DNA from: Acidobacteriota bacterium
GTDB lineage: Bacteria; Acidobacteriota; Terriglobia; Terriglobales; Acidobacteriaceae
Assembly: GCA_021826695.1 (NCBI GenBank)
Contig: JAKAYS010000008.1
Location: forward strand, 1-42,610
Direction: 5' to 3'
DNA: 42,610 nt
Shown here: positions 1,007 to 14,273 of the stretch, one piece after another
How positions within the stretch are numbered: position 1 is the first letter of the stretch
How the letters are laid out: every line of letters starts with the position of its first letter
Notes under the pieces: generated by a model
What the model was told of the DNA's origin: nothing
Seen by the model: the letters and a program-made list of their open reading frames with translations, nothing else
Database searches by the model: none
Translations under genes and position numbers: made by a program

Positions 1007-1326
1007 TGTCCGCGCCCAGCACAGCGCTGTCCGCATATTTCATGATGATTCCGGTGAGTTTTTCCAGCATATTTCTTTAGAAATACCTTTCTGCTCCGCC
1101 CAGCTTGAACTATTGTTTATAACACGCCATCCAGGTGGGTAAACCCTGCGCCATCTGCGCTGTTACAGATGCAAATCGCTGCACACCGTACTCCTCGCAA
1201 CCCTCTCGCAATTCTCGTTGTATCGCCGCAAAGGCTTGGATCGCCAGTTTTTTGATGAGCGAGTTTGGCCTCGCACTTGCATAGGTGTGAACAGAGAAGT
1301 TCGTGTTCTCTATGCGAGAGGGAGTC
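1007..1326. other. intergenic control region between the activator unit and the EPS operon
   Basis: This 320-bp stretch holds no convincing gene. It contains a perfect 10-bp palindrome at 1021-1030 (ACAGCGCTGT) and a 7-bp inverted repeat with a 2-nt loop at 1070-1085 (TATTTCT-TT-AGAAATA). It also has a CTCGCAA direct repeat at 1194-1200 and 1205-1211, 11 bp apart and so on the same helix face, and a sigma-54 promoter near its right end. The repeats sit 55-90 bp upstream of that promoter, within the usual range for an NtrC-type enhancer. Whether they are binding sites is inference. Confidence 0.6.
1266..1281 (+). promoter_or_regulatory. candidate sigma-54 (-24/-12) promoter of the EPS operon
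   Basis: TGGCCTCGCACTTGCA carries the invariant GG (1267-1268) and GC (1279-1280) separated by exactly 10 bp, with TGGC on the left and TTGCA on the right as in the consensus. Transcription would start near 1292, some 35 nt before the deacetylase ATG. A sigma-54 activator gene ends about 770 bp upstream. Confidence 0.7.
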
Positions 1327-2292
1327 ATGGGTAACGACATAGCATCCGCAAAGAGCAAGTTGGAAGTTGCTCTTATGCCGGAACCAATGGATCGCCCTTG
1401 CCATGCGCTCACGGTCGATTTGGAAGACTACTTCCATACCGAAACTGCTGCACAGGGAGTTTCGCGCGCAGAGTGGGAAACCCAGCCATCGCGAATCGAG
1501 TCCAGTACCAGCCGCCTGCTCGATCTACTGGATCGTAACGCAGTGCATGCCACATTTTTTGTTCTTGGATGGGTGGCAAAACGTTTTCCGGCGCTTATCG
1601 AAGAAATTCATCAACGAGGGCATGAAGTAGGTTGTCACAGTCTCAATCATCAACTGGTGTGTCGAATATCGCCACGTGAATTTCATGAAACTACGCGAGA
1701 AGCGAAAGACCTTATCGAATCCATCATCGAAGAACCGATCCAGGGTTATCGCGCGCCCAACTTCTCCATTCTTCCTGGATATGAGTGGGCATTTGAAACG
1801 TTGGCAGATCTCGGATTTCTTTATGACTCCAGCGTGCATCCAATTCGTCACCCTCTCTACAGCAACCCCGATGCGCCGCGGGGCCCATACTGCGTAGCCG
1901 GTGGGCGGCTGATGGAGCTTCCTATTGCGACATGGAGGTTGGCGGGACACAATCTCTCGGCAGGAGGGGGCGCTTATTTGCGTCTACTACCTTACCAATA
2001 CATTCAACGCGGGCTGAAAGCATGGGAAAAGCACATGCAGACACCAGCAATGGTCTATTTGCATCCCTGGGAGCTCGATCCAAATCCGCCTCGTATTCCT
2101 CTCTCTTTCAAATCCACCATTCGCCAGACATGGGGAACGTCTGCGATGGAAGCTAAGCTGCAGCGCTTGTTCGAGCAATTTCATTTTGCCCCGGTTCGGG
2201 ATGCATATAAAAGCCTGCTAGGTGACAAAGAATTTCTTCCACGCAAAACCCCCTTTCAACTAACAGAACAAGTGAAACAGGTGGCAGGATGA
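1327..2292 (+). CDS. XrtA-type polysaccharide deacetylase (DUF3473)
   Basis: A 321-aa NodB-fold carbohydrate esterase of the type found in exosortase A/EPS loci. It should remove N-acetyl groups from the nascent or exported polysaccharide. Visible motifs are the LTVDLEDYF segment with the catalytic/metal aspartates (D31, D34), the metal-binding pair in CHSLNH (H104, H108), the GYRAPNFSI segment near residue 140, and a C-terminal MVYLHPWELDP segment typical of the DUF3473 extension. No signal peptide is seen, as is usual in this subfamily. ATG 1327 is chosen because GAGAGGGAG lies directly upstream; an upstream GTG at 1303 lacks a site. It is the first gene behind the sigma-54 promoter, and its stop overlaps the next start (ATGA), so translation is coupled. 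Confidence 0.93.
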   Translation: MGNDIASAKSKLEVALMPEPMDRPCHALTVDLEDYFHTETAAQGVSRAEWETQPSRIESSTSRLLDLLDRNAVHATFFVLGWVAKRFPALIEEIHQRGHEVGCHSLNHQLVCRISPREFHETTREAKDLIESIIEEPIQGYRAPNFSILPGYEWAFETLADLGFLYDSSVHPIRHPLYSNPDAPRGPYCVAGGRLMELPIATWRLAGHNLSAGGGAYLRLLPYQYIQRGLKAWEKHMQTPAMVYLHPWELDPNPPRIPLSFKSTIRQTWGTSAMEAKLQRLFEQFHFAPVRDAYKSLLGDKEFLPRKTPFQLTEQVKQVAG

Positions 2293-3704
2293 AAGAAATA
2301 ACTCAGAAAACCCCTCCTCAATTTAAGTCAGATCCCACCGCTGAGATCATCCGCCGAATTGTCCATCCCCTTTGGGCCAGACGAACACATCCGACCTACG
2401 CCCGGTACCTACATGAATTCGAAGGGAACCAGTATCTTCATCCCGACGAGTTACAGAAGTTACAGATGCAGCGCCTTCGACAGCAACTGGTCCATGCATA
2501 CAAATACGTACCCTTCTATCGGCTCCGCATGGCTGAAGCAGGAATGACTCCGCTAGATGTACAGACACACAAGGATTTAGCACAGCTTCCTGTGCTGACG
2601 AAGCGCGACATACAAGACCATGGCGATCTCCTGGTGTCGAGCAATATTCCAGCATCGAAGCGGGTGCAGAACCAGACCGGAGGGTCTACAGGAAGCCCGC
2701 TCCAGTTCTACGTGGACAAAGAACGCTGTGATTCGCGCATGGCCAGCACAGAACGACATAATTCCTGGGCAGGACTGCGCGCGGGGGATTGGTATGCGCA
2801 CCTGTGGGGTTCTCGCTTTGATGTTGGCGACAAGCCCAATCCGAATCCAGCATGGCGACAAAAGCTTTTGTATCGTGATTTGACACTACACACCGCCTGC
2901 GTCAGCGAAGAAGCAATGCTGGAATACGTTGGGGTACTACGCCGCTATCGCCCCCGGTACATGCTTGCCTACGCGCAGTCAGCCGTGCTCTTTGCTGAAT
3001 TTTGCCGCAATAACAACATATCCGATATAGCCTTTGAATCCATGATCGTTTCAGCGGAAATGTTGCTGCCAGGAAAACGTGCCTTGCTGGAAAAAACGTT
3101 TGGAGGGAGGGTCTTCAACCGCTACGGGTGCAGAGAAGTCAGCGTCATTGCAAGTGAATGTGAATTCCACACTGGCCTTCACGTCAATGCAGATGCTCTG
3201 TTGGTCGAGGTGGAACCAGTTCCGAACCTACCCTCGGGAATGGGTCGAGTGCTTATCACGGACCTCCTGAATCGATCGATGCCCCTCATTCGTTATGAAA
3301 TTGGCGATCTGGCGAGCCTCAATACTCCATTGCATTGCCAGTGCGGACGCTCGTTACCTTTGATTGGAAACATTGAGGGTCGAACCTCCGATTTCCTGGA
3401 ACTTCCGAACGGACGCATGATTGCTGGCCCTTCGCTGGCCTTACTCGCCGCTGATATGCGCGAAGTTCGTCAGGTCCAGTTTATTCAACCTGATCCACAA
3501 CATGTGACGCTGAAAGTTGTTGCCGGTACCGGATACAGCGCACTTACAGAGCAGGAGTTGCGTCGACGTATGCAGCCCTATCTTGAAGGACATACGAGCC
3601 TAACGATTGTTACATCCGACTCGATTCCTTCCGAACCTTCCGGTAAATACAGATTTGTAAAAAAGGGTGATAATGCGGTCGCAATCGACACTGTGGCGCA
3701 ATAG
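2289..3704 (+). CDS. CapK/PaaK-like adenylate-forming enzyme, copy 1
   Basis: A 471-aa cytosolic protein of the phenylacetate-CoA-ligase-like (CapK) branch of the ANL superfamily, which activates carboxylates as acyl-adenylates. It shows the phosphate-binding loop TGGSTGSP (residues 130-137), the YGCRE motif, RYEIGD, the hinge motif GRTSD, a Cys-x-Cys-Gly-Arg element, and the C-terminal PSGK with the expected catalytic lysine. All expected motifs are present, so it is probably active. Relatives occur in many capsule and exosortase-EPS loci, but their acyl substrate and acceptor are generally unknown. The gene starts inside the stop codon of the deacetylase gene. It is the most divergent of the four CapK-like genes in this operon. 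Confidence 0.9.
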   Translation: MKEITQKTPPQFKSDPTAEIIRRIVHPLWARRTHPTYARYLHEFEGNQYLHPDELQKLQMQRLRQQLVHAYKYVPFYRLRMAEAGMTPLDVQTHKDLAQLPVLTKRDIQDHGDLLVSSNIPASKRVQNQTGGSTGSPLQFYVDKERCDSRMASTERHNSWAGLRAGDWYAHLWGSRFDVGDKPNPNPAWRQKLLYRDLTLHTACVSEEAMLEYVGVLRRYRPRYMLAYAQSAVLFAEFCRNNNISDIAFESMIVSAEMLLPGKRALLEKTFGGRVFNRYGCREVSVIASECEFHTGLHVNADALLVEVEPVPNLPSGMGRVLITDLLNRSMPLIRYEIGDLASLNTPLHCQCGRSLPLIGNIEGRTSDFLELPNGRMIAGPSLALLAADMREVRQVQFIQPDPQHVTLKVVAGTGYSALTEQELRRRMQPYLEGHTSLTIVTSDSIPSEPSGKYRFVKKGDNAVAIDTVAQ

Positions 3705-3714
3705 GAGAACAACG

Positions 3715-3924
3715 ATGAAAAACTTTCACTTTCACCCCGCTCTGCATGTAACTCAACCGGAATTTGTGGCTGGGCCCCATACTCATCTTCCGACGCTACT
3801 TGGACAGTCCAGAAGTCCATCCATAAATGCGCATCGTGTGATGGTCGCCGCTGCAAACCTATTTATCGAACAAGATCACTACCAGCAATTGTGTACCAAA
3901 CAAAGTGTAGAGGCTGGATTATGA
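3715..3924 (+). CDS. small hypothetical protein coupled to the polyprenyl-P transferase gene
   Basis: A 69-residue protein I do not recognise. It is rich in histidine near its start (FHFHPALH, PHTHLP) and has no membrane segment or signal peptide. Coding support comes from a ribosome-binding site (AGGAGA, 3703-3708) ahead of ATG 3715, a gap of only 10 nt from the CapK gene, and an ATGA overlap (3921-3924) with the next gene. The same four-base coupling joins the two genes upstream. An alternative in-frame start at 3667 lies inside the CapK gene and is less likely. Confidence 0.6.
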   Translation: MKNFHFHPALHVTQPEFVAGPHTHLPTLLGQSRSPSINAHRVMVAAANLFIEQDHYQQLCTKQSVEAGL

Positions 3925-5024
3925 TTTTTCAGGTCGAACTCATTGGAGTCTTGACTGTTGGGCTCCTGTCTTCATGGGCTGTCGCCAGCTATTTTCATTC
4001 ATTTGCTTTAAATCACAAGATTATTGACGTTCCGAATGAGAGAAGCCTGCATGTCGCTCCTAAACCACGCGCTGGCGGCGTTTCTTTCTTTCTCGTGTTC
4101 ACGCTGGCTGTTTTTATTTTACTGTCATCGCATTTTATATCGATTTCGGAAGCGTCTGCCTTGTCATGCGGAATTCTAGTTGCTGTCGTCGGCTACTGGG
4201 ATGATCGTGTAGGACTGTCAGCAGCATTTCGAATTGTCGTGCACGTCGCAGCAGCGATACTGGCTGTGTCCTTCTTAGGCGGAATTGTTCCGATTCAGGT
4301 TGGATTCGCCATCTATCTGCCTCGTGTCACAGTGGCGGTCATTGCAGTCAGTGGCCTGGTATGGCTCACCAATCTTACTAACTTCATGGACGGAGTTGAC
4401 GGCATTGCCAGTGTTGAGGCAATTACGACCGCAGGTATCTGTAGCCTCTTGGTTATCCATAGATCTGGATTCAACGGGTTGGCGATTCTATTCTGCGTAC
4501 TTGCTGCTGCCGTGGCCGGATTTCTTGTCTGGAATTGGCCGCCAGCATCTATTTATATGGGAGACATTGGAAGTGGTTTCTTAGGTTTCACTCTAGGAGT
4601 GATGGTTTACATCGCTGTTGTTCGACATCAATTATCGATTTGGCCTCCGTTGATTCTTTTTGGAGTGTTCGTGGTTGATGCTACATGGACATTAGTTTGG
4701 CGAATGCTTCGGGCTGAACGCTGGTATACACCACATCGCACGCACGCTTATCAACATGCAGCCACTCTTTGGGGACATCGAAATACCACCCTCAGTGTTG
4801 CCTGCATTGACCTCTTTTGGCTGGCTCCATGGGCATTCTTTGCCGATAGACAACCCTCACTAGCACCGCTTCTGCTCGTATGCGCATGGATACCACTTTT
4901 AGGATTGGTTTATTGGCTTCGGGCCGGAGAGGCTTCATCCCACGGTAAGACTGTCCAGTCTCAGATTCCTTTAAGGTCTGCAAACTTGGTGCCAACTTTT
5001 CCACATAACTCCCAAACCGGCTGA
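3921..5024 (+). CDS. polyprenyl-phosphate sugar-1-phosphate transferase (WecA/WbpL-like, MraY family)
   Basis: A 367-aa integral membrane enzyme with about ten or eleven hydrophobic segments. It transfers a sugar-1-phosphate, commonly an N-acetylhexosamine phosphate, from a UDP-sugar to undecaprenyl phosphate and so starts repeat-unit assembly on the inner face of the membrane. Family motifs are clear: DVPNERSLH with AGG near the N-terminus, the metal/substrate aspartates in GYWDDRVGLS, NFMDGVDGI, YMGDIGSGF, and a histidine-containing cytoplasmic loop HRTHAYQH. ATG 3921 is preferred to an upstream ATG (3891): AGAGG lies about 7 nt before it and it overlaps the preceding stop. The adjacent WbpM-like dehydratase suggests a 6-deoxy-N-acetylhexosamine as the first sugar, which is inference. 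Confidence 0.93.
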   Translation: MIFQVELIGVLTVGLLSSWAVASYFHSFALNHKIIDVPNERSLHVAPKPRAGGVSFFLVFTLAVFILLSSHFISISEASALSCGILVAVVGYWDDRVGLSAAFRIVVHVAAAILAVSFLGGIVPIQVGFAIYLPRVTVAVIAVSGLVWLTNLTNFMDGVDGIASVEAITTAGICSLLVIHRSGFNGLAILFCVLAAAVAGFLVWNWPPASIYMGDIGSGFLGFTLGVMVYIAVVRHQLSIWPPLILFGVFVVDATWTLVWRMLRAERWYTPHRTHAYQHAATLWGHRNTTLSVACIDLFWLAPWAFFADRQPSLAPLLLVCAWIPLLGLVYWLRAGEASSHGKTVQSQIPLRSANLVPTFPHNSQTG

Positions 5025-5042: not shown

Positions 5043-6998
5043 ATGGGCAATAGGTCTTCACTTGTAAGATGGATGATTTGTTACGCTGGCACACTTCGAC
5101 TGTTGCTGCTCGGCAATGTTCTAGTTTTAAGCGTCTATTTTGCTTTCGTAACGCTTTTTAACGGAAGCATCCCGCAAAACTGGCTTCCTTATCTGCCGTT
5201 TATAGCGATGATTTGGGCCCTTTCTCAATGCACCATTCTAGTCGCTTTTGGCATACACAAGAGCCTGTGGAGTTTTACTTCTATCGACGAAATGCTTCAT
5301 CTTGTTGGCATCGGCTTGATCGCCTCAATCTTTAGTTCAGTTGTGATTGCAGGTGTGTTGAGCCGTCCAGTCCCGCTATCAATTTATCTTCTATGTGCAA
5401 TCTATTCTATCTGTGGAATCGCTGGAGCTAGATTGGGATTCCGCTGGATTGCATCCCGTCTTCGCCAAACGCAGTTCTCCTCCGAACAAAAAACAGCACT
5501 GATCTACGGCGCGGACGCGGCCGGCGTCGGAATACTTTCAGATTTGAAACGAGACTGCCCAGAGTTCCGCGTAATAGGCTTCGTGGATGACCGCCCGGAA
5601 TGCCAGTGCAATTCAGTTGCGGGTCTTCGTGTTTTAGGGCAAAGCGATGAATTGGAGATGCTGGCCGGCAAGTATGGAGTCAGCATGATATTTACTTCCT
5701 CCATGGCCAATTCAGAAGTACTCAGGCTCGCAATGGCTGAAACCAGCCTGAAAAACAAGCTAGACATACGAGTAGTCACTTCCTTTGCGAATGAAGTTCG
5801 TCATGGGGCAAGGTGCATCCCTCGCGAAGTTCCTGTGGAGCAATTGCTAGGTCGTTCTCCAGTTGAAATGAATCTTAGTCTTATCCAAGGTAAAGTAAGC
5901 GGACGTATCGTGATGGTCACTGGAGCTGCTGGTTCTATCGGTTCCGAACTGTGCCGACAGCTAGCAGTATTTCGACCTAGCACCATTGTTGCGTATGAGA
6001 TCAATGAGACCGCACTTTTTTTCATAGAGCGGGAGATGCAGGAGAAATTTAAAGACGTGCAGTTTGTCCCCTGTATCGGAAGTGTGCAAAATGCACAGAG
6101 ACTTTCTGAAGTTTTGAAAACCTATGCACCTTCTGTGGTCTATCACGCAGCTGCATATAAACACGTTCCGTTAATGGAGCGGCATTTATTTGAGGTCATT
6201 GAAAATAACGTGTTCGGCACCGATATTCTGCTGCAATGTTGCCGCGAGTACGGGGTCAAGACATTTGCCATGATTTCAAGCGACAAGGCCGTGCGCCCAA
6301 CAAGCATCATGGGCGTGAGTAAGCGCATTGCAGAACTGATCGTTCGTTCTTCTTCGGCACGTTCTACCAATTGCGTCTCGGTGCGCTTCGGCAACGTACT
6401 CGGCAGCAATGGAAGTGTCATACCCATTTTTCGCAAACAAATAGAAATGGGCGGCCCGGTAACCGTGACTCACCCCGAAATGGTTCGATATTTCATGACT
6501 ATTACCGAGGCATCCCAACTGGTTCTCCAGGCCTCAAGCCTCGGATCAAGCGATGAGATTTTTGTGTTGGACATGGGACTTCCCATCAAAATAGTTGATT
6601 TGGCTGAAAGGCTGATCAGACTGATGGGTTACATCCCTGGCAAAGATATCGAAATCAGATTCTCAGGCATGAGACCAGGTGAAAAGTTGTTTGAAGAACT
6701 GAGTACAACCGGACAAGACACCCGACCGACTCTCCACGAAAAAATTGCAGTCCTTAACGAGCCTGGGCCTCCCCCGCACTACTTGCGGGAGCAACTTCAT
6801 CACCTGCAAGCTGCCTGTCAGAACCGCGACGCTCACAGGACCCTCACAATTCTTCAACGGCTAGTTCCAGAATACACACCCAGTCGAGAGTTACTGATGA
6901 CTGTAAGGGAAAGCAAAAACCAAGTAAACCGTTCTGAGATAAGTCGCCCAGAGATTAACCACTCTGAAACAAGCAGGCCTGAGTGGATCGCTTCATGA
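5043..6998 (+). CDS. membrane-anchored nucleotide-sugar 4,6-dehydratase (FlaA1/WbpM/CapD type)
   Basis: A 651-aa protein, the usual length for the large WbpM-type form. Four hydrophobic segments lie in about residues 15-125, followed by a CoA-binding-like Rossmann domain (about 150-260) and a C-terminal short-chain dehydrogenase domain. The latter begins with the NAD(P) loop TGAAGSIGSE near residue 294. The catalytic region reads SSDKAVRPTSIMGVSK (S412/S413, M423, K427). It has the Ser-Met-Lys arrangement of this family, where most short-chain dehydrogenases have Ser-Tyr-Lys. Members convert UDP-GlcNAc to a UDP-4-keto-6-deoxy sugar. The gene follows the initiating transferase by 18 nt, so both probably act on the first sugar of the repeat. 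Confidence 0.93.
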   Translation: MGNRSSLVRWMICYAGTLRLLLLGNVLVLSVYFAFVTLFNGSIPQNWLPYLPFIAMIWALSQCTILVAFGIHKSLWSFTSIDEMLHLVGIGLIASIFSSVVIAGVLSRPVPLSIYLLCAIYSICGIAGARLGFRWIASRLRQTQFSSEQKTALIYGADAAGVGILSDLKRDCPEFRVIGFVDDRPECQCNSVAGLRVLGQSDELEMLAGKYGVSMIFTSSMANSEVLRLAMAETSLKNKLDIRVVTSFANEVRHGARCIPREVPVEQLLGRSPVEMNLSLIQGKVSGRIVMVTGAAGSIGSELCRQLAVFRPSTIVAYEINETALFFIEREMQEKFKDVQFVPCIGSVQNAQRLSEVLKTYAPSVVYHAAAYKHVPLMERHLFEVIENNVFGTDILLQCCREYGVKTFAMISSDKAVRPTSIMGVSKRIAELIVRSSSARSTNCVSVRFGNVLGSNGSVIPIFRKQIEMGGPVTVTHPEMVRYFMTITEASQLVLQASSLGSSDEIFVLDMGLPIKIVDLAERLIRLMGYIPGKDIEIRFSGMRPGEKLFEELSTTGQDTRPTLHEKIAVLNEPGPPPHYLREQLHHLQAACQNRDAHRTLTILQRLVPEYTPSRELLMTVRESKNQVNRSEISRPEINHSETSRPEWIAS

Positions 6999-7110
6999 AA
7001 TAGAAATTGCGGATGTGCTAGATAAATGTCTTTCGACTACTTCAGCGGTGTATATTCACTGGCCCAAGATGTCTGCAAAGGCAAGAAACATGGCTTCACG
7101 GAGGATATTT

Positions 7111-8502
7111 ATGAGCTGGCCAAATAAAAAATCATTTCTGCCTTTGTCTAACAGAAGACCCCAGCGAGATCTAACTATCAGGGTAAGTCAGATCCGCGCA
7201 TTTGAGCGGATGCCCGAGCACCAACAACGCGATATGCATCAACTGAGTCTACGGAAATTGCTTGTCCATGCATACGCAACCACTCCCTATTACAAGAAAC
7301 GATTCGATGATGCTGGATTCGATCCTTCTCAGGCACGCACGGATTGTCCGCTGCCTTTGCCGCCTTTAACACGCAATAAACTGCGCTCCGAAGGACACAA
7401 CCAGCTTTCCAATGCATTCTTACCATCTGATCTACGGTTGTATACGACAGGTACTTCGAATGCACCCGTGAAGTTTCAGTGTGACTTGAATGGTCTCAAG
7501 AATAAAATGGCACTGAATCATCAACTAAATTCCTGGGCCGGATTTCAGATGGGAGATCCCGTTATGGCGCTTTGGGGAGCACATACATATCTCACGATGG
7601 AACCAGACTGGCGGCTACGACTCGATAAGAAAAGTTCATTGCACCGTATTCCTTCATCAAACGGAATTATCAATGAAGAAATTCTTGAACGCTTTCGTAT
7701 TCGATATGAAAAAACACGACCTAGGGTCCTATTTGGCTATTCCACTGTACTCGTAGCCTTCGCACTCTATCTGCAAGCCCATGGTCTGCGTCATCGCCCA
7801 AAATCTGTGATTGCTACAGCAGAAGCGCTAAGTCCAGAAAATAGAAAGATCGTTGAAACTGCTTTTGGATGCTCCATTTACTTGCAAAATAGCAGCCGTG
7901 ATATTGGAATGGTCGCAGCGGAGTGTTCGAAACATGAAGGATTGCACTACCATCCTTGGGGATCGTACGTCACGTTTGACCCAATTGGCGACACGCCGCA
8001 AGGTCCAGCGTATCGCCTGTTTATCACCGATCTACTGAACTATGGTCAGCCCCTCGTACATTATGATGCTGGCGATTGTGTGATTTTAGACAATCAGAGA
8101 TGTAGTTGTGGAAGTTGGTTTCCTCTTGTGCGCAGTTTTCTTGATAGCGCGGCGAGTAGTTATGCTTTCGCTGACGGCAGGCTCCAGCCAGGTCACCGCC
8201 TGAGTTTCGCCGTTAAAGATGATTTTCGAGCTCTCCTGAACGTTGAATTCATACAAAAAAGCAGAAATCATCTTCACTTACGCTATAGGGTCAGGAAGCA
8301 CGAAACCGCTGTAGATGGAGAACTTGATTCCGTCCGTGAAACGATCGACGCGATGATGGGCGAGCACATGCAGTGGACTATGGAAAAGCTTGCAGACATT
8401 CCAAGTGAGAGGTCTGGAAAGCTGAGCGTTTGTCTCTTAGAAGTAAACACGCCAAACGACAGGAATGCAAAACAATCACTTGGCTACCATCAACCTTTTT
8501 AA
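7111..8502 (+). CDS. CapK/PaaK-like protein, copy 2, with altered active-site motifs
   Basis: A 463-aa relative of the two genes that follow, alignable without large gaps. ATG 7111 is chosen for the GGAGGA site just upstream and because MSW plus the next 60 residues match copy 3; an open frame reaches back to GTG 7015. The fold is clearly kept (FERMPE, TDLLNYGQP, the CSCGSWFP cysteines, ERSGK with its lysine). Several adenylation motifs are changed relative to copies 3 and 4: YG becomes NS at residues 260-261, RYDTGD becomes HYDAGD (H317, A320), and the hinge GRxxD becomes DSxxS (345-349). The phosphate loop is TTGTSNAP in place of the SGTTSTP type. It may be an inactive or re-purposed paralogue rather than a working ligase. 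Confidence 0.87.
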   Translation: MSWPNKKSFLPLSNRRPQRDLTIRVSQIRAFERMPEHQQRDMHQLSLRKLLVHAYATTPYYKKRFDDAGFDPSQARTDCPLPLPPLTRNKLRSEGHNQLSNAFLPSDLRLYTTGTSNAPVKFQCDLNGLKNKMALNHQLNSWAGFQMGDPVMALWGAHTYLTMEPDWRLRLDKKSSLHRIPSSNGIINEEILERFRIRYEKTRPRVLFGYSTVLVAFALYLQAHGLRHRPKSVIATAEALSPENRKIVETAFGCSIYLQNSSRDIGMVAAECSKHEGLHYHPWGSYVTFDPIGDTPQGPAYRLFITDLLNYGQPLVHYDAGDCVILDNQRCSCGSWFPLVRSFLDSAASSYAFADGRLQPGHRLSFAVKDDFRALLNVEFIQKSRNHLHLRYRVRKHETAVDGELDSVRETIDAMMGEHMQWTMEKLADIPSERSGKLSVCLLEVNTPNDRNAKQSLGYHQPF

Positions 8503-8582: not shown

Positions 8583-9992
8583 ATGAGTTGGTTCCATACT
8601 AATTTCGTTCTTCCAGTTGCTGAACCTCAACGCTACGTTGGCCTTTCTAGACGCCTAGGCGAAATCCGGAAGTTTGAGCGCATGCCCGAGCAGCAACAGC
8701 GTACTGCACAGCAACAGCGATTACGAACATTGCTGGAGCACGCATACAACACCGTTCCCTACTACCGAAAACAATTTGACGATGCCGGATTTCACCCTTC
8801 TCAGGCTCGTATCGATCAACCAATTCCCCTTCCGGTAATGACGCGCGACGTATTGCGCGATAAGTCCGATTTGTTACTATCGACTGCCTTCAAACCAGAA
8901 GAGCTGAAGATAGCTGCGAGCAGTGGTACCACCAGCACGCCTGTCACCTTCCGCCGTGACGTGGAAGGTCTTCGCAATAAGGTTGCACTGAACTTCCAAT
9001 TGAATACATGGGCTGGGTATGAACCTGGGGATTCCGTCATGATGTTGTGGGGCGCCCATCGCGATCTCACAATGGAACCAAGTTGGCGCTGGCGCCTATA
9101 TGAAGAAGTCCTGATGCACCGGACCTCTGCTCCCAGCGGTTTGATCAACGACGAAATCCTGGAGAGGTTCCGGCTGCGCTACGAAAAGCAGCGCCCTAAA
9201 GTCCTCTATGGATACTCTACCGTTCTGGCCGTCTTCGCTTCCTATTTGCGGCAGTGCGGCATGCGACATAAACCAAGCATCGTGATTGCTACCGCGGAAG
9301 TACTCAACGAACAAAACAGGAAGCTTATTGAATCCGTCTTCGACATTCCTGTGTTTGTTCACTACGGAAGCCGAGATACTGGCATGATCAGCGCCGAGTG
9401 TTCTGAGCACGAGGGATTGCACTTCCATCCGTGGGGATCCTACGTCGAGTTCGACCGGATAGGAGATACTCCCGACGGCCCCTCGTATCGCATTCTAGTC
9501 ACCGACCTGTTGAACTATGGACAGCCTTTCATTCGCTATGACACTGGCGACTGCGTGACGCTTGCCATACAGCGCTGTAGCTGTGGCCGGTGGTTCCCGC
9601 TCGCCAGTCAGATTCTTGGCCGCGTCGCGGACGGAATCCTTCTCGCCAACGGTGGCATCGTTCCCGGAGTCACAATCGGATGTCAGATGACCAGTTTGCA
9701 ACAGAATTTTCAGGCGATTTTACAAGTTCAGGTTGTCCAAAAAAGTCATCAGCACCTGCATTTGCGTTACGTGGTAAGAGACCAAAGCACAGCCGAATTT
9801 CAGGAACTGGAATCTATTTGCAATGGAATTGACTCACTTATCCATCAGAAAATGCGCTGGACGCTGGAAAAAGTGTCCGCCTTACCGAGAGAGCGATCTG
9901 GAAAAATTCGCTTGTGCCTTTCCGAAATCAAAACTCCAAGATCTACCTTCGCCGCGCCATTCCAGGCGGAGCAGACGTTAGTGCAACTTTAG
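8583..9992 (+). CDS. CapK/PaaK-like adenylate-forming enzyme, copy 3
   Basis: A 469-aa member of the same family with all motifs intact: SSGTTSTP (113-120), YGSRD (261-265), RYDTGD (318-323), the hinge GRVAD (346-350), the pair ECSEHEGLHFHPW and CSCGRWFP that may bind a metal, and the terminal RERSGK. The predicted reaction is ATP-dependent activation of a carboxylic acid; whether it continues to CoA, a carrier protein or a sugar cannot be read from the sequence. ATG 8583 is preceded by AGAGGA and begins MSWFH, parallel to copy 4 (MSKFH). The frame stays open upstream into copy 2, but that extension has no homology to the paralogues. An 80-nt gap separates it from copy 2. Confidence 0.9.
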   Translation: MSWFHTNFVLPVAEPQRYVGLSRRLGEIRKFERMPEQQQRTAQQQRLRTLLEHAYNTVPYYRKQFDDAGFHPSQARIDQPIPLPVMTRDVLRDKSDLLLSTAFKPEELKIAASSGTTSTPVTFRRDVEGLRNKVALNFQLNTWAGYEPGDSVMMLWGAHRDLTMEPSWRWRLYEEVLMHRTSAPSGLINDEILERFRLRYEKQRPKVLYGYSTVLAVFASYLRQCGMRHKPSIVIATAEVLNEQNRKLIESVFDIPVFVHYGSRDTGMISAECSEHEGLHFHPWGSYVEFDRIGDTPDGPSYRILVTDLLNYGQPFIRYDTGDCVTLAIQRCSCGRWFPLASQILGRVADGILLANGGIVPGVTIGCQMTSLQQNFQAILQVQVVQKSHQHLHLRYVVRDQSTAEFQELESICNGIDSLIHQKMRWTLEKVSALPRERSGKIRLCLSEIKTPRSTFAAPFQAEQTLVQL

Positions 9993-10087: not shown

Positions 10088-11527
10088 ATGAGCAAGTTTC
10101 ACACTCACTTTTTATTGCCTTTTGCTGTACCAGAACGGCACGCTGGACTACCTGGCCGTTTGCGTGAAATCCAGAAGTTTGAGCGCATGTCTGAGCAGCA
10201 ACAGCGCGAAGTACAGCAGCAACGATTGAGCAGGATACTCGAGCACTCATATCGTACTGTTCCTTATTATCGCAAGCAGTTTGACGCAGCCGATTTTCAC
10301 CCATCCCATGGAAGAGTGGACCAGCCGTTACCACTGCCCATACTGACACGTGATGATTTGCGTCAACGAACGGAGGAGCTTCTTTCCAACTCATACAAAC
10401 AAGCTGACCTGCGAACTTCGGCCACAGGAGGTACCACCAGTACACCCGTGCGATTCTGTCGTGACCTGGAAGGTTTGCGAAATAAAACAGCTCTCCAACT
10501 TCAACTGAATTCCTGGGCTGGGTACGAAGCTGGCGATTCTGTCATGACGCTTTGGGGAGCGCATCGTGACCTCTTAATGGCACCGAGCTGGCGCTGGCGT
10601 CTGTACGAAGAAGTGCTCATGCGATGTGTCTCGGCGCCCAGCGGTTTCATCAACGAAGAAATTCTGGAGCGGTTCCGTCAACGATATGAGAAACACCGCC
10701 CAAAAGTTCTCTACGCATATACCAATGTGCTTGTGGCATTTGCCTCCTACCTTAAAAAACACGGACTTCAACACAGGCCCAAAGTGTTGATAGTAACAGC
10801 GGAACTACTCAGCGAACCGAGTCGAAAGTTGATTGAATCTGTATTCGATGTGCCTGTCTTTAATCATTACGGAAGCCGCGACGTTGGTATGATCAGCTCG
10901 GAGTGCTCTTACCATACAGGGCTGCACTTCCATCCCTGGGGATGTTATGTCGAGTTCGATCGAATCGGCGATACGCCGGACGGGCCAGCTTATCGCCTTC
11001 TAGTTACCGATCTGCTCAACTACGGGCAGCCATTTATCCGCTACGATACAGGGGATTGCGTTACCCTGAACAATCGGGACTGTAGCTGTGGTCGATGGTT
11101 CCCACAGGTCGGCCAAATCCTGGGCCGGGTTGCCGATGGGCTCGAACTCGCAGATGGTGGTATTGTGCCTGGCGTCAGCGTCGGCAATCATATGTCCCAG
11201 ATGGGACAAACATTCCGTGCCATTTCACAAGTTCAATTTGTGCAAAAGTCTCACGAACATCTCCACCTGCGCTACGTTGTAAAGGATGAACACCCTTCGG
11301 CGCGAGAGGAACTCAAATCTATCTGCAGCGCCATCGATTCGCTGGCCAACCATCCATTCAACTGGACACTCGAAAAGGTAGCTAATATTCCGCGGGAACG
11401 CTCCGGTAAAATTAGACTTTGCATGTCGGAGTTGCACACCCCGGACTCAAGTTTGGCGAAGCCCTTGCAGTCGCAGAACTTGCGGGAGGGGATCACCTGC
11501 TCTAGCTTTGTTGATCTGCCATCGTGA
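10088..11527 (+). CDS. CapK/PaaK-like adenylate-forming enzyme, copy 4
   Basis: A 479-aa protein closest to copy 3 over its whole length, which implies a recent tandem duplication. All ANL motifs are kept: ATGGTTSTP (112-120), YGSRD, RYDTGD, GRVADG, CSCGRWFP and RERSGK. AAGGA lies 5 nt before ATG 10088. The last 20 or so residues after the conserved region are unlike copy 3. It ends the co-directional operon; the next gene is convergent. Two intact, closely similar copies beside one another suggest gene dosage or two related acyl substrates. No acyl-carrier protein or obvious acyltransferase lies next to them. Confidence 0.9.
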   Translation: MSKFHTHFLLPFAVPERHAGLPGRLREIQKFERMSEQQQREVQQQRLSRILEHSYRTVPYYRKQFDAADFHPSHGRVDQPLPLPILTRDDLRQRTEELLSNSYKQADLRTSATGGTTSTPVRFCRDLEGLRNKTALQLQLNSWAGYEAGDSVMTLWGAHRDLLMAPSWRWRLYEEVLMRCVSAPSGFINEEILERFRQRYEKHRPKVLYAYTNVLVAFASYLKKHGLQHRPKVLIVTAELLSEPSRKLIESVFDVPVFNHYGSRDVGMISSECSYHTGLHFHPWGCYVEFDRIGDTPDGPAYRLLVTDLLNYGQPFIRYDTGDCVTLNNRDCSCGRWFPQVGQILGRVADGLELADGGIVPGVSVGNHMSQMGQTFRAISQVQFVQKSHEHLHLRYVVKDEHPSAREELKSICSAIDSLANHPFNWTLEKVANIPRERSGKIRLCMSELHTPDSSLAKPLQSQNLREGITCSSFVDLPS

Positions 11528-11642: not shown

Positions 11643-14270
11643 TTATGGGCACTTCAACACCGCTCCGTTCCAGGTAGCCACCAATGGGGACGCACCGTTC
11701 CAGCAAGTCATTGTAGGGGTCCCAGTTCCACTAAAAGTCGCGGATGCATCCGAATTCTGCTGGTTTACGACAGTTGAGACCCCAAAATCGAAGATAACCG
11801 GTGAAACCAAGTCAGGAAGGACCCAATTCACGCCACCGTCGTACGAGATTGTGGCTGAGAATGCGTCCGCTGCATCGGCCCCGGTAATATTGTAATGATT
11901 GCCTGAATATGTCCAACCGGTCATATTCGAGCCGTCGATAGAGTAGACACCCGAACTGGCATTGTAATTTACAATTCCGCCGGCGCTGTAGGGGTTGGTT
12001 GGGACATTCAAAACAAGTGTGTTGAAATTCGACTGTCCGGAATCTGCATATACCTGTGTCCATCTCAGAGCTTGTGCCGGACATGCTCCAGTGGAAACTG
12101 TGATCCAGTTATTATCGATGGTCGTGTTAGTAATGCTTCCGCCGGTTTTTCCACCATTGGCTATTTGGAAGTCTTTGACACGCACTCCGTAGTTTCCGTC
12201 GATCTCGCACCCAATAGCATTATGATTTGGGTCATGCACCCTTCCGGAATCGACGGTATTTCCAACGTTGTAATTCAGAGTCACGTTAGAAGCTTCAATC
12301 TCATAGCCACGAGTGTTCCCCGCGCAATAGTTTCCACGTATATTGGTTCCGGAAGCTACGGCAAATGCACAATAGCCACCAACATACTGTGTCGGGCCGC
12401 CAACCACGTAGTTATTAATAATGTTGGTTGTCTCAGCTGCCAGGATGCCTCCCTGTGGAGAACTATTGATTACATTATCGTGGATCAAACTCGAAGGGCT
12501 AGTAGCTGCGGAACGATTCCCATTGGCAAGCTTTATTGGGAACCCGGAAAGCGCGTCTCGATTGAACATCGACGTTGAAGTATCATTTATTTTATTGAAT
12601 TGCACAATGTTTCCAAAGTGCCCGTAATGGGTTGAGATGCCCATGACCTCAATCCCGGAGACATTCACAGTAACGTCGGAAATCAAGCTATTTCCATTGT
12701 CGCCATCATCTTGCGGAGATCCAATCGAAATGGCTCCCGAATGCGGAGAACTATTGGCGCTCTGGGTAATCGTCCCATTATAAATAGACAGGTTGAAACA
12801 GGAACCGCTGTTGCTATATGGGTTGCATGCGATCCCATAGTGGGGCTGTGCAGGCCAGACGGTGTAGTTCCCGTTCCCTGCCGACGTGAATGGTGGCGCA
12901 TTTGCTACTGTAACCGTCGTGGGACTTACATAGCCGGTGATCGTGGTTTCCCGGGTCATGTATGTGTTATTTGTAAGTCCGATGAAATCCCCGACCATGC
13001 TGGACTTAAACGGTGTACCAGAAGCCACGGAGATCGTAGCGCTGCCATTGGTGGCGTTCAAGTTGTTTCCTGTGGCTAGCGGAGAATCTCCGGTGCCATA
13101 GGTAATGGTGTGGCCGTTCAAATTGATTGCGACATTGCTGGCTGATACCAAAATCCCCGTGCCGGGACAGCTAATGTCCGTCGAAAGATAGTAAGTCTTG
13201 CTGGCCGTGGAAAGTGTGGAGCACGATGCAATTGGCGTCCCGGTAGCCGGCTTCAATGTGTACGCATAGGACGCCACTGTGGAGTCCAGCATGCCGGCCT
13301 TTGCAGCAAGTGCCTTGAACGTCTTCGCACCATAAAGGCTGAAATTCGGCACATCCGCCGGACGATATTCCATCGTCGTGCCAGTGGGATACATGGTGCC
13401 GTTCACAGTCGTATAGGTTGGTGTCGTCCCATCCCACGTATAGAAGATGGTCGCTCCGCTAGTTGCGTCGCTAGGTGTAGTAACGGTTCCCGGAGCTACA
13501 CTACCTGCCGCTTGCGAAAACACCGGTGTTGCTACTGTCCCTGTTGGGATGGGAGTGGGGGCTGGCACAGGTGCAGGTGTTGGGATAGGAGTGGGTGGTG
13601 GCACGGGTGCAGGTGTAGGAACGGGGGCCGGCGAGGGGGTTGGAATCGGTGCTGGGGTGCTGCTGTTCGATGTCACCACTAAGGTCAGAGCACCTGTTAC
13701 GTTATTCTTCAGCGCATCGGACACAATCACATTGAACGCGTAGTTTCCTGCTACGGACGGTGTACCCGATAGATCTCCACTGGAACTGAGAGAAAAACTT
13801 GACGGCAAGGACGACTGGCCGAAGCTCCAAGTGTAGGGGGGCTGCCCACCGGAGGCAGCGAGAGCGACGCTATAACTCTTGCCAGCGACGGCCGACGGGA
13901 CACTGCTTGTGGTCAGACTGAGCGCGGGGTAGCAACGTGTTGGCCCTTGATCAGCCAGTGGGCTTGCTTCCATTTCCAATTCCGCGATCATGTAAGTGCC
14001 GCCCTTTTTGCCGTCGCCCTGGCCAATCTGAGGTACCCGCAGACCTGTGGTAGCCAGGATGCCTTGACCGATGAAGCTGGATATCCCTCCGATCGGCGTC
14101 TCTTTAGAGAGAGCTTGTAAAGGCACTCCGTTTAGTTCCCCTTGTCGCACGGAAATGTTGCATTGGGCCTCAACCGATCTGGATGAGGTAGCGGTGGCGT
14201 TGGAACTGTTGGCGACTGACGCGCTGACCAGAAAGGTCATGATGGTTAAAGAGAGAAATGGCTTATGCAA
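11643..14270 (-). CDS. secreted Ig-like and right-handed beta-helix protein
   Basis: A protein of about 875 aa with an N-terminal signal peptide (hydrophobic FLSLTIMTFLVSASVA). The order of parts is: a short unique region; a putative Ig domain (about 120-200, ending in GTPSVAGNYAFNVIVSD); a Pro/Ala/Thr-rich linker of repeated P-x-P units (about 208-242); a chitobiase/beta-hexosaminidase C-terminal-like domain (about 245-340); and a long region with LNGHTI and many asparagine-rich short strands, typical of a parallel beta-helix (about 370-740). It should act outside the cytoplasm, perhaps as a polysaccharide-binding, lyase or epimerase protein; no catalytic residues could be assigned. A TTG start at 14270 has GGAGG 7 nt upstream and is preferred; GTG at 14273 is the alternative. 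No PEP-CTERM sorting tail is present. Confidence 0.85.
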   Translation of the reverse strand: MHKPFLSLTIMTFLVSASVANSSNATATSSRSVEAQCNISVRQGELNGVPLQALSKETPIGGISSFIGQGILATTGLRVPQIGQGDGKKGGTYMIAELEMEASPLADQGPTRCYPALSLTTSSVPSAVAGKSYSVALAASGGQPPYTWSFGQSSLPSSFSLSSSGDLSGTPSVAGNYAFNVIVSDALKNNVTGALTLVVTSNSSTPAPIPTPSPAPVPTPAPVPPPTPIPTPAPVPAPTPIPTGTVATPVFSQAAGSVAPGTVTTPSDATSGATIFYTWDGTTPTYTTVNGTMYPTGTTMEYRPADVPNFSLYGAKTFKALAAKAGMLDSTVASYAYTLKPATGTPIASCSTLSTASKTYYLSTDISCPGTGILVSASNVAINLNGHTITYGTGDSPLATGNNLNATNGSATISVASGTPFKSSMVGDFIGLTNNTYMTRETTITGYVSPTTVTVANAPPFTSAGNGNYTVWPAQPHYGIACNPYSNSGSCFNLSIYNGTITQSANSSPHSGAISIGSPQDDGDNGNSLISDVTVNVSGIEVMGISTHYGHFGNIVQFNKINDTSTSMFNRDALSGFPIKLANGNRSAATSPSSLIHDNVINSSPQGGILAAETTNIINNYVVGGPTQYVGGYCAFAVASGTNIRGNYCAGNTRGYEIEASNVTLNYNVGNTVDSGRVHDPNHNAIGCEIDGNYGVRVKDFQIANGGKTGGSITNTTIDNNWITVSTGACPAQALRWTQVYADSGQSNFNTLVLNVPTNPYSAGGIVNYNASSGVYSIDGSNMTGWTYSGNHYNITGADAADAFSATISYDGGVNWVLPDLVSPVIFDFGVSTVVNQQNSDASATFSGTGTPTMTCWNGASPLVATWNGAVLKCP
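13541..13670 (-). repeat. proline-rich linker repeats
   Basis: Within the beta-helix gene the DNA repeats short units encoding P-T-P-A-P-V/I on the minus strand, giving about 36 residues of alternating proline. Such linkers keep domains apart on the cell surface. The repetition makes this stretch prone to length change by slippage. Confidence 0.75.
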
Positions 14271-14273
14271 CAC

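Follow-up and report, generated by a model that had tools for sequence, protein, structure and literature searches.

A candidate pseudoenzyme with lost adenosine-side motifs in a CapK/PaaK-like ligase array of an Acidobacteriota polysaccharide locus

The window, that is, the whole stretch of 42,610 nucleotides that was analyzed, carries four CapK/PaaK-like genes on its forward strand. It raises the question of why one of them has kept an open reading frame while losing residues central to adenylation. Copy 1 (2289..3704) is a-type, and copies 2 (7111..8502), 3 (8583..9992), and 4 (10088..11527) are b-type. The motifs of copies 1, 3, and 4 are intact. Copy 2, which encodes 463 amino acids, is the pseudoenzyme candidate, based on its open frame, its identity to copies 3 and 4 (54 and 52%, respectively), and a predicted PaaK fold. 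The window makes up a single contig of a draft genome in 227 contigs (G000).

The setting of the array is shared with related bacteria. Upstream lies an XrtA-system polysaccharide deacetylase (1303..2292, forward strand; TIGR03006 above the cut-off), a neighbor that is kept across genomes. The order of deacetylase, a-type CapK, and one or more b-type CapKs is found repeatedly in the genus and family, and the pair of a- and b-type genes can be traced up to the order level. Genes of the Wzy_C and Wzx types are located downstream of the array. Between copies 1 and 2 are genes, also on the forward strand, for a WecA/MraY-like glycosyl transferase of family 4 (3918..5024) and a WbpM/PglF-like nucleotide-sugar dehydratase (5043..6998). 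Among the genomes compared, the glycosyl transferase gene separates copies 1 and 2 only in G000. These two genes look inserted, as the CapK genes are adjacent in other genomes, and like copy 2 they have a low GC3. Despite the XrtA-type deacetylase, an exosortase (PF09721) was not found in the draft genome, and a search of seven genomes located one in G007 only. Adjoining the array on the reverse strand (11643-14273) is a gene for a secreted-looking protein of 876 amino acids with a match to CHB_HEX_C_1, and stretches homologous to it occur near the arrays of several relatives (L037, L134, and L137). A scan of the array for promoters and terminators returned no more signals than were found in shuffled sequences.

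When compared with copies 3 and 4, copy 2 is altered at three motifs, as the preliminary description had reported. Specifically, N260-S261 (7888..7893) replaces the A5 Tyr-Gly, HYDAGD at residues 317-322 (8059..8076) replaces RYDTGD, and DSAAS at residues 345-349 (8143..8157) replaces the A8 hinge GRVAD. In the second of these the Arg has become His317 and the A7 aspartate D322 is kept. The altered positions fall in columns that are at least 90% conserved among 58 relatives. In a set of 142 aligned homologs, which contains copy 2 twice as two overlapping loci, the Arg of RYxxGD is missing in copy 2 alone, and the A5 Tyr is missing only in copy 2 and one distant homolog. The features earlier described as intact were likewise confirmed. 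They include the open frame of 463 codons, a GGAGG ribosome-binding site (7100..7104) six bases ahead of the ATG, and the A10 lysine K437 within RSGK (8419..8421), together with two pairs of zinc-type ligands, C272...H279 (7924..7947) and C331-x-C333 (8101..8109), the same ligand set as in NatL2 (PMC7204872). In addition, the A3 phosphate loop TTGTSNAP (residues 112-119; 7444..7467) is nearly intact, the only change being a conservative T to S, and the A5 acidic residue D264 is retained.

By alignment, the functional residues of solved relatives correspond to Y261, R318, and G346-R347 of copy 3. The A5 Tyr is Tyr236 of NatL2, which stacks on the adenine (PMC7204872). For the A8 Arg, which makes contact with the ribose, replacement in a related ligase is reported to cause an approximately 100-fold loss (PMC8388817). 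Because the lost positions map onto NatL2 Tyr236 and A8, the adenosine side of the predicted active site is lost in copy 2, while the phosphate and lysine side is kept. Copy 2 probably adenylates very weakly, if at all. Some residual activity is possible because the A5 acidic residue, the A7 Asp, the phosphate loop, and the A10 Lys remain. The same residues would be expected if copy 2 were still an enzyme with an altered use of substrate or nucleotide, its adenosine and acyl pockets having been remodeled together. A loop between the core strands has changed as well (D161Y and W170L, copy 3 numbering), and a new function can go with fast evolution. However, the aligned homologs with solved structures retain the A5 Gly, the A8 Gly-Arg, and the Arg preceding A7; most of the 142 homologs, which are of diverse origin, preserve the A5, A7, and A8 columns; and copy 2 offers no visible alternative nucleotide site. 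An enzyme of altered specificity seems unlikely.

The preliminary description had also held that the loss was restricted to the active-site motifs, and this part was not sustained. Among 174 columns that are invariant in ten close intact b-type paralogs, 42 (24%) are changed in copy 2, as against 1-11 when each intact paralog is left out in turn. The changes affect 11 of the 30 invariant columns in motifs and 31 of the 144 outside them, so the enrichment in motifs is weak (Fisher p = 0.067). Similarly, 24% of the sites in the most conserved quartile are changed in copy 2, versus 1-4% in the intact copies. The terminal branch of copy 2 measures 0.65-0.70 per site, about 300 replacements, whereas those of copies 3 and 4 measure 0.16-0.22, and relative-rate tests with outgroups found copy 2 to be faster than copies 3, 4, and G002_d (p = 0.011 to 0.0001). 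Copy 2 shows acceleration throughout the protein, together with the loss of its putative catalytic motifs.

This pattern is compatible with a redundant duplicate under relaxed selection that is heading toward a pseudogene, its frame being open since the loss of constraint was recent or partial. The long branch, the proportion of invariant columns changed, and the weak focus on motifs are in line with such a history, as are the presence of two intact copies next door and the failure to find an ortholog of copy 2 in 398 genomes of the family. No ortholog was detected in viral contigs either. In contrast, full neutrality predicts many more lesions in the frame. When copy 3 was evolved neutrally to 54% identity, a mean of 17.7 nonsense hits accumulated (about 16-18), and none of 400 runs had zero. 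Even with only 20% replacement, just 0.25% of runs were free of nonsense hits. Copy 2 has no stop or frameshift across its replacements, and it is very unlikely that the frame is open by chance. Moreover, the replacements favor variable sites (AUC 0.68, p = 4e-9), with values of 0.75-0.81 for the intact copies, and the ribosome-binding site, zinc ligands, and K437 are kept. Because nonsense hits are absent against the neutral expectation and the changes still avoid conserved sites, the frame and the site pattern together suggest that selection kept the protein over most of its branch, under weaker constraint, and copy 2 may have been released from constraint recently. Synonymous sites between copy 2 and its paralogs are saturated (pS 0.80), hence they yield no usable dN/dS for copy 2. 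Codon decay was considered as a source of the low GC3 of copy 2 (0.43) and was set aside, given values almost as low (0.44 and 0.49) in the pair of genes immediately upstream. The draft state of the genome, with its many contigs, might also suggest that the altered residues are artifacts of assembly or binning. Errors of this kind would give frameshifts and stops, whereas the changes extend along the entire gene, are in frame throughout, and leave a coherent identity to both neighboring copies, which makes an artifact extremely improbable.

Further evidence on the fate of such copies comes from related genomes. Outside the window, eight of them (G003, G005-G009, G025, and the genome of L056) carry a b-type gene of 402-422 amino acids in the slot that follows copy 1, and this gene lacks the C-terminal domain and the A10 lysine. 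These genes, here called clade B, are located in L035 (6623-7831), L036, L037 (361-1569), L039, L040 (3267-4475), L041 (1140-2348), L042 (7650-8918), and L056 (8840-10108). Their phosphate loop is altered, A5 and A7 are intact, and A8 is mostly intact. The tail behind the core looks disordered in the models, where its confidence is very low, and in the two cases read, no remnant of a C-terminal domain was present in the DNA past the stop. Between close genomes, the dN/dS of clade B is 0.06-0.25 and about 0.1 in most pairs, compared with 0.04-0.18 for a-type and 0.08-0.14 for intact b-type genes. The highest value, 0.25 for G005/G007, comes from an alignment in which some codons precede the likely start. 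The truncated gene is the only b-type gene found in G007, a genome that is 98% complete. Clade B is a retained paralog under purifying selection that is predicted to be catalytically incomplete, and this conserved truncated paralog is a better-evidenced finding than the proposed pseudoenzyme in the window.

Clade B and copy 2 are alike in their position in the first b-type slot after copy 1, their subfamily, their missing catalytic features, and their open frames. Their lesions differ. In clade B the adenosine motifs are kept, the C-terminal domain and A10 Lys are gone, and the phosphate loop is altered, while in copy 2 the reverse is found. Likewise, clade B has orthologs and evidence of purifying selection, whereas copy 2 has no ortholog in the genomes searched. 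Phylogenetically, clade B has a full-length and intact sister, G002_b. Placement of copy 2 in clade B alone, excluding G002_b, was rejected (AU p = 0.021), and copy 2 also possesses the C-terminal domain. A group of copy 2, clade B, and G002_b was not rejected (AU p = 0.36). The tree tests do not separate placements of copy 2 as the sister of clade B plus G002_b, of copy 3, or of G001_b, and signature residues give no decision among them.

The array of G001 (L033, 767-3624) shows another pattern of damage. Both of its CapK genes are accelerated and have damaged motifs in open frames, with YV for YG in the a-type gene and loss of the RD and the hinge in the b-type gene. This locus may be decaying. 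Because its genes are damaged yet open, a locus in decay may retain open frames for some time, and the loosening of this whole array adds to the case for copy 2 as a redundant duplicate on its way to a pseudogene. Weighed against the retained frame and site pattern, that history for copy 2 seems rather unlikely, though it deserves serious consideration. Because the lesions differ among copy 2, clade B, and G001_b, catalytic features have probably been lost more than once in these CapK arrays.

The reading preferred here is that copy 2 is an adenylation-impaired pseudoenzyme candidate maintained by selection, perhaps as a partner subunit of its paralogs, and it has about an even chance of being correct. 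Under this proposal, a b-type CapK/PaaK-like ligase was duplicated to give rise to copy 2, which would then have lost the half of the site that holds adenosine, namely the A5 Tyr-Gly, the Arg preceding A7, and the A8 Gly-Arg with the hinge Asp. The C-terminal domain, including its A10 lysine, would have survived, along with the fold, the phosphate loop, and the zinc site. Adenylation would be abolished or severely reduced, little or no ATP would be bound, and the protein would be retained as a non-catalytic partner. By analogy, the likeliest mechanism would be a heteromer of copy 2 with an intact copy. PaaK-type enzymes are dimers with mutually dependent subunits (PMC8388817; PMC7204872), and PaaK1 requires dimerization because its phosphate loop is isolated by the N-terminal microdomain. 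In NatL2, the contact with the alpha phosphate is made by Lys418 of the opposite subunit (PMC7204872). Because the subunits depend on each other and this catalytic lysine is supplied in trans, an inactive copy would have a place to act. It could complete, stabilize, or tune the site of its partner at a locus that would make or modify a surface polysaccharide. A scaffold or regulatory role, as suggested in the preliminary description, may at most be inferred. For the view of copy 2 as a pseudoenzyme kept in frame, the retained frame, the site pattern, the predicted fold, and the precedent of clade B in the same array slot for a kept but catalytically incomplete copy are all favorable, while the supposed confinement to motifs has fallen away and constraint is visibly relaxed. 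A broader hypothesis makes the first b-type slot a pseudoenzyme slot. Losses after duplication would have recurred there, by deletion of the C-terminal domain in clade B, by loss of the adenosine site in copy 2, and by a third pattern in G001, and the reason would be that a heteromeric ligase for polysaccharide synthesis requires an inactive subunit, which completes or controls it. This generalization is speculative and appears unlikely.

In the papers found, the role of CapK/PaaK ligases in polysaccharide loci is not established, and the literature searched yielded no paper on a catalytically dead CapK/PaaK ligase paralog or on a relevant ANL pseudoenzyme. With intact and inactivated copies side by side and a truncated version in eight genomes, the question of a heteromeric ligase is testable with few expressed genes. 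It may be that the 'dead' copies serve some function in these polysaccharide clusters.

By homology and predicted fold, copy 2 fits the CapK/PaaK-like adenylate-forming ligases of the ANL superfamily (COG1541 type). Its AlphaFold model, which like the others is a monomer, has a pLDDT of 80.6 and a pTM of 0.78 and matches PaaK1 and BT_0428 with a Z of 28. Among the family features, the A3 loop and the A10 lysine in the C-terminal domain are present, and the A5 Tyr-Gly, A8 Gly-Arg, and hinge Asp are absent. The best NCBIfam matches of copy 2 do not reach the curated cut-offs set for named subfamilies, and it is assigned to none of them; a Pfam search at E 0.001 returned no match for any of the four copies. 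The closest known systems are the PaaK-type ANL ligases PaaK1/PaaK2 (2Y27, 2Y4N, 2Y4O), BT_0428 (4R1L), NatL2 (6SIW), and HCL (6HDW). Like these, copy 2 has a predicted fold that includes the N-terminal helical microdomain and the C-terminal domain, and it keeps the A3 loop, A7 Asp, A10 Lys, and the zinc ligand pattern of NatL2. Unlike the aligned members, it has substitutions at the A5 Gly, at the Arg preceding A7, and at the A8 Gly-Arg, and the A5 Tyr is replaced too. EhpF of phenazine biosynthesis (3HGU, 3L2K; about 350 amino acids), which was compared by fold only, gave a Z of 16. Like clade B, EhpF is an ANL-fold protein without a C-terminal domain. Copy 2, in contrast, has this domain, and the pathway is different. 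Finally, the tyrosine pseudokinase EcpK of Myxococcus xanthus, although unrelated to copy 2 in fold and in the step concerned, is reported to act in exopolysaccharide synthesis (PMC12004946), and it is a precedent for a catalytically dead enzyme homolog in a polysaccharide pathway.
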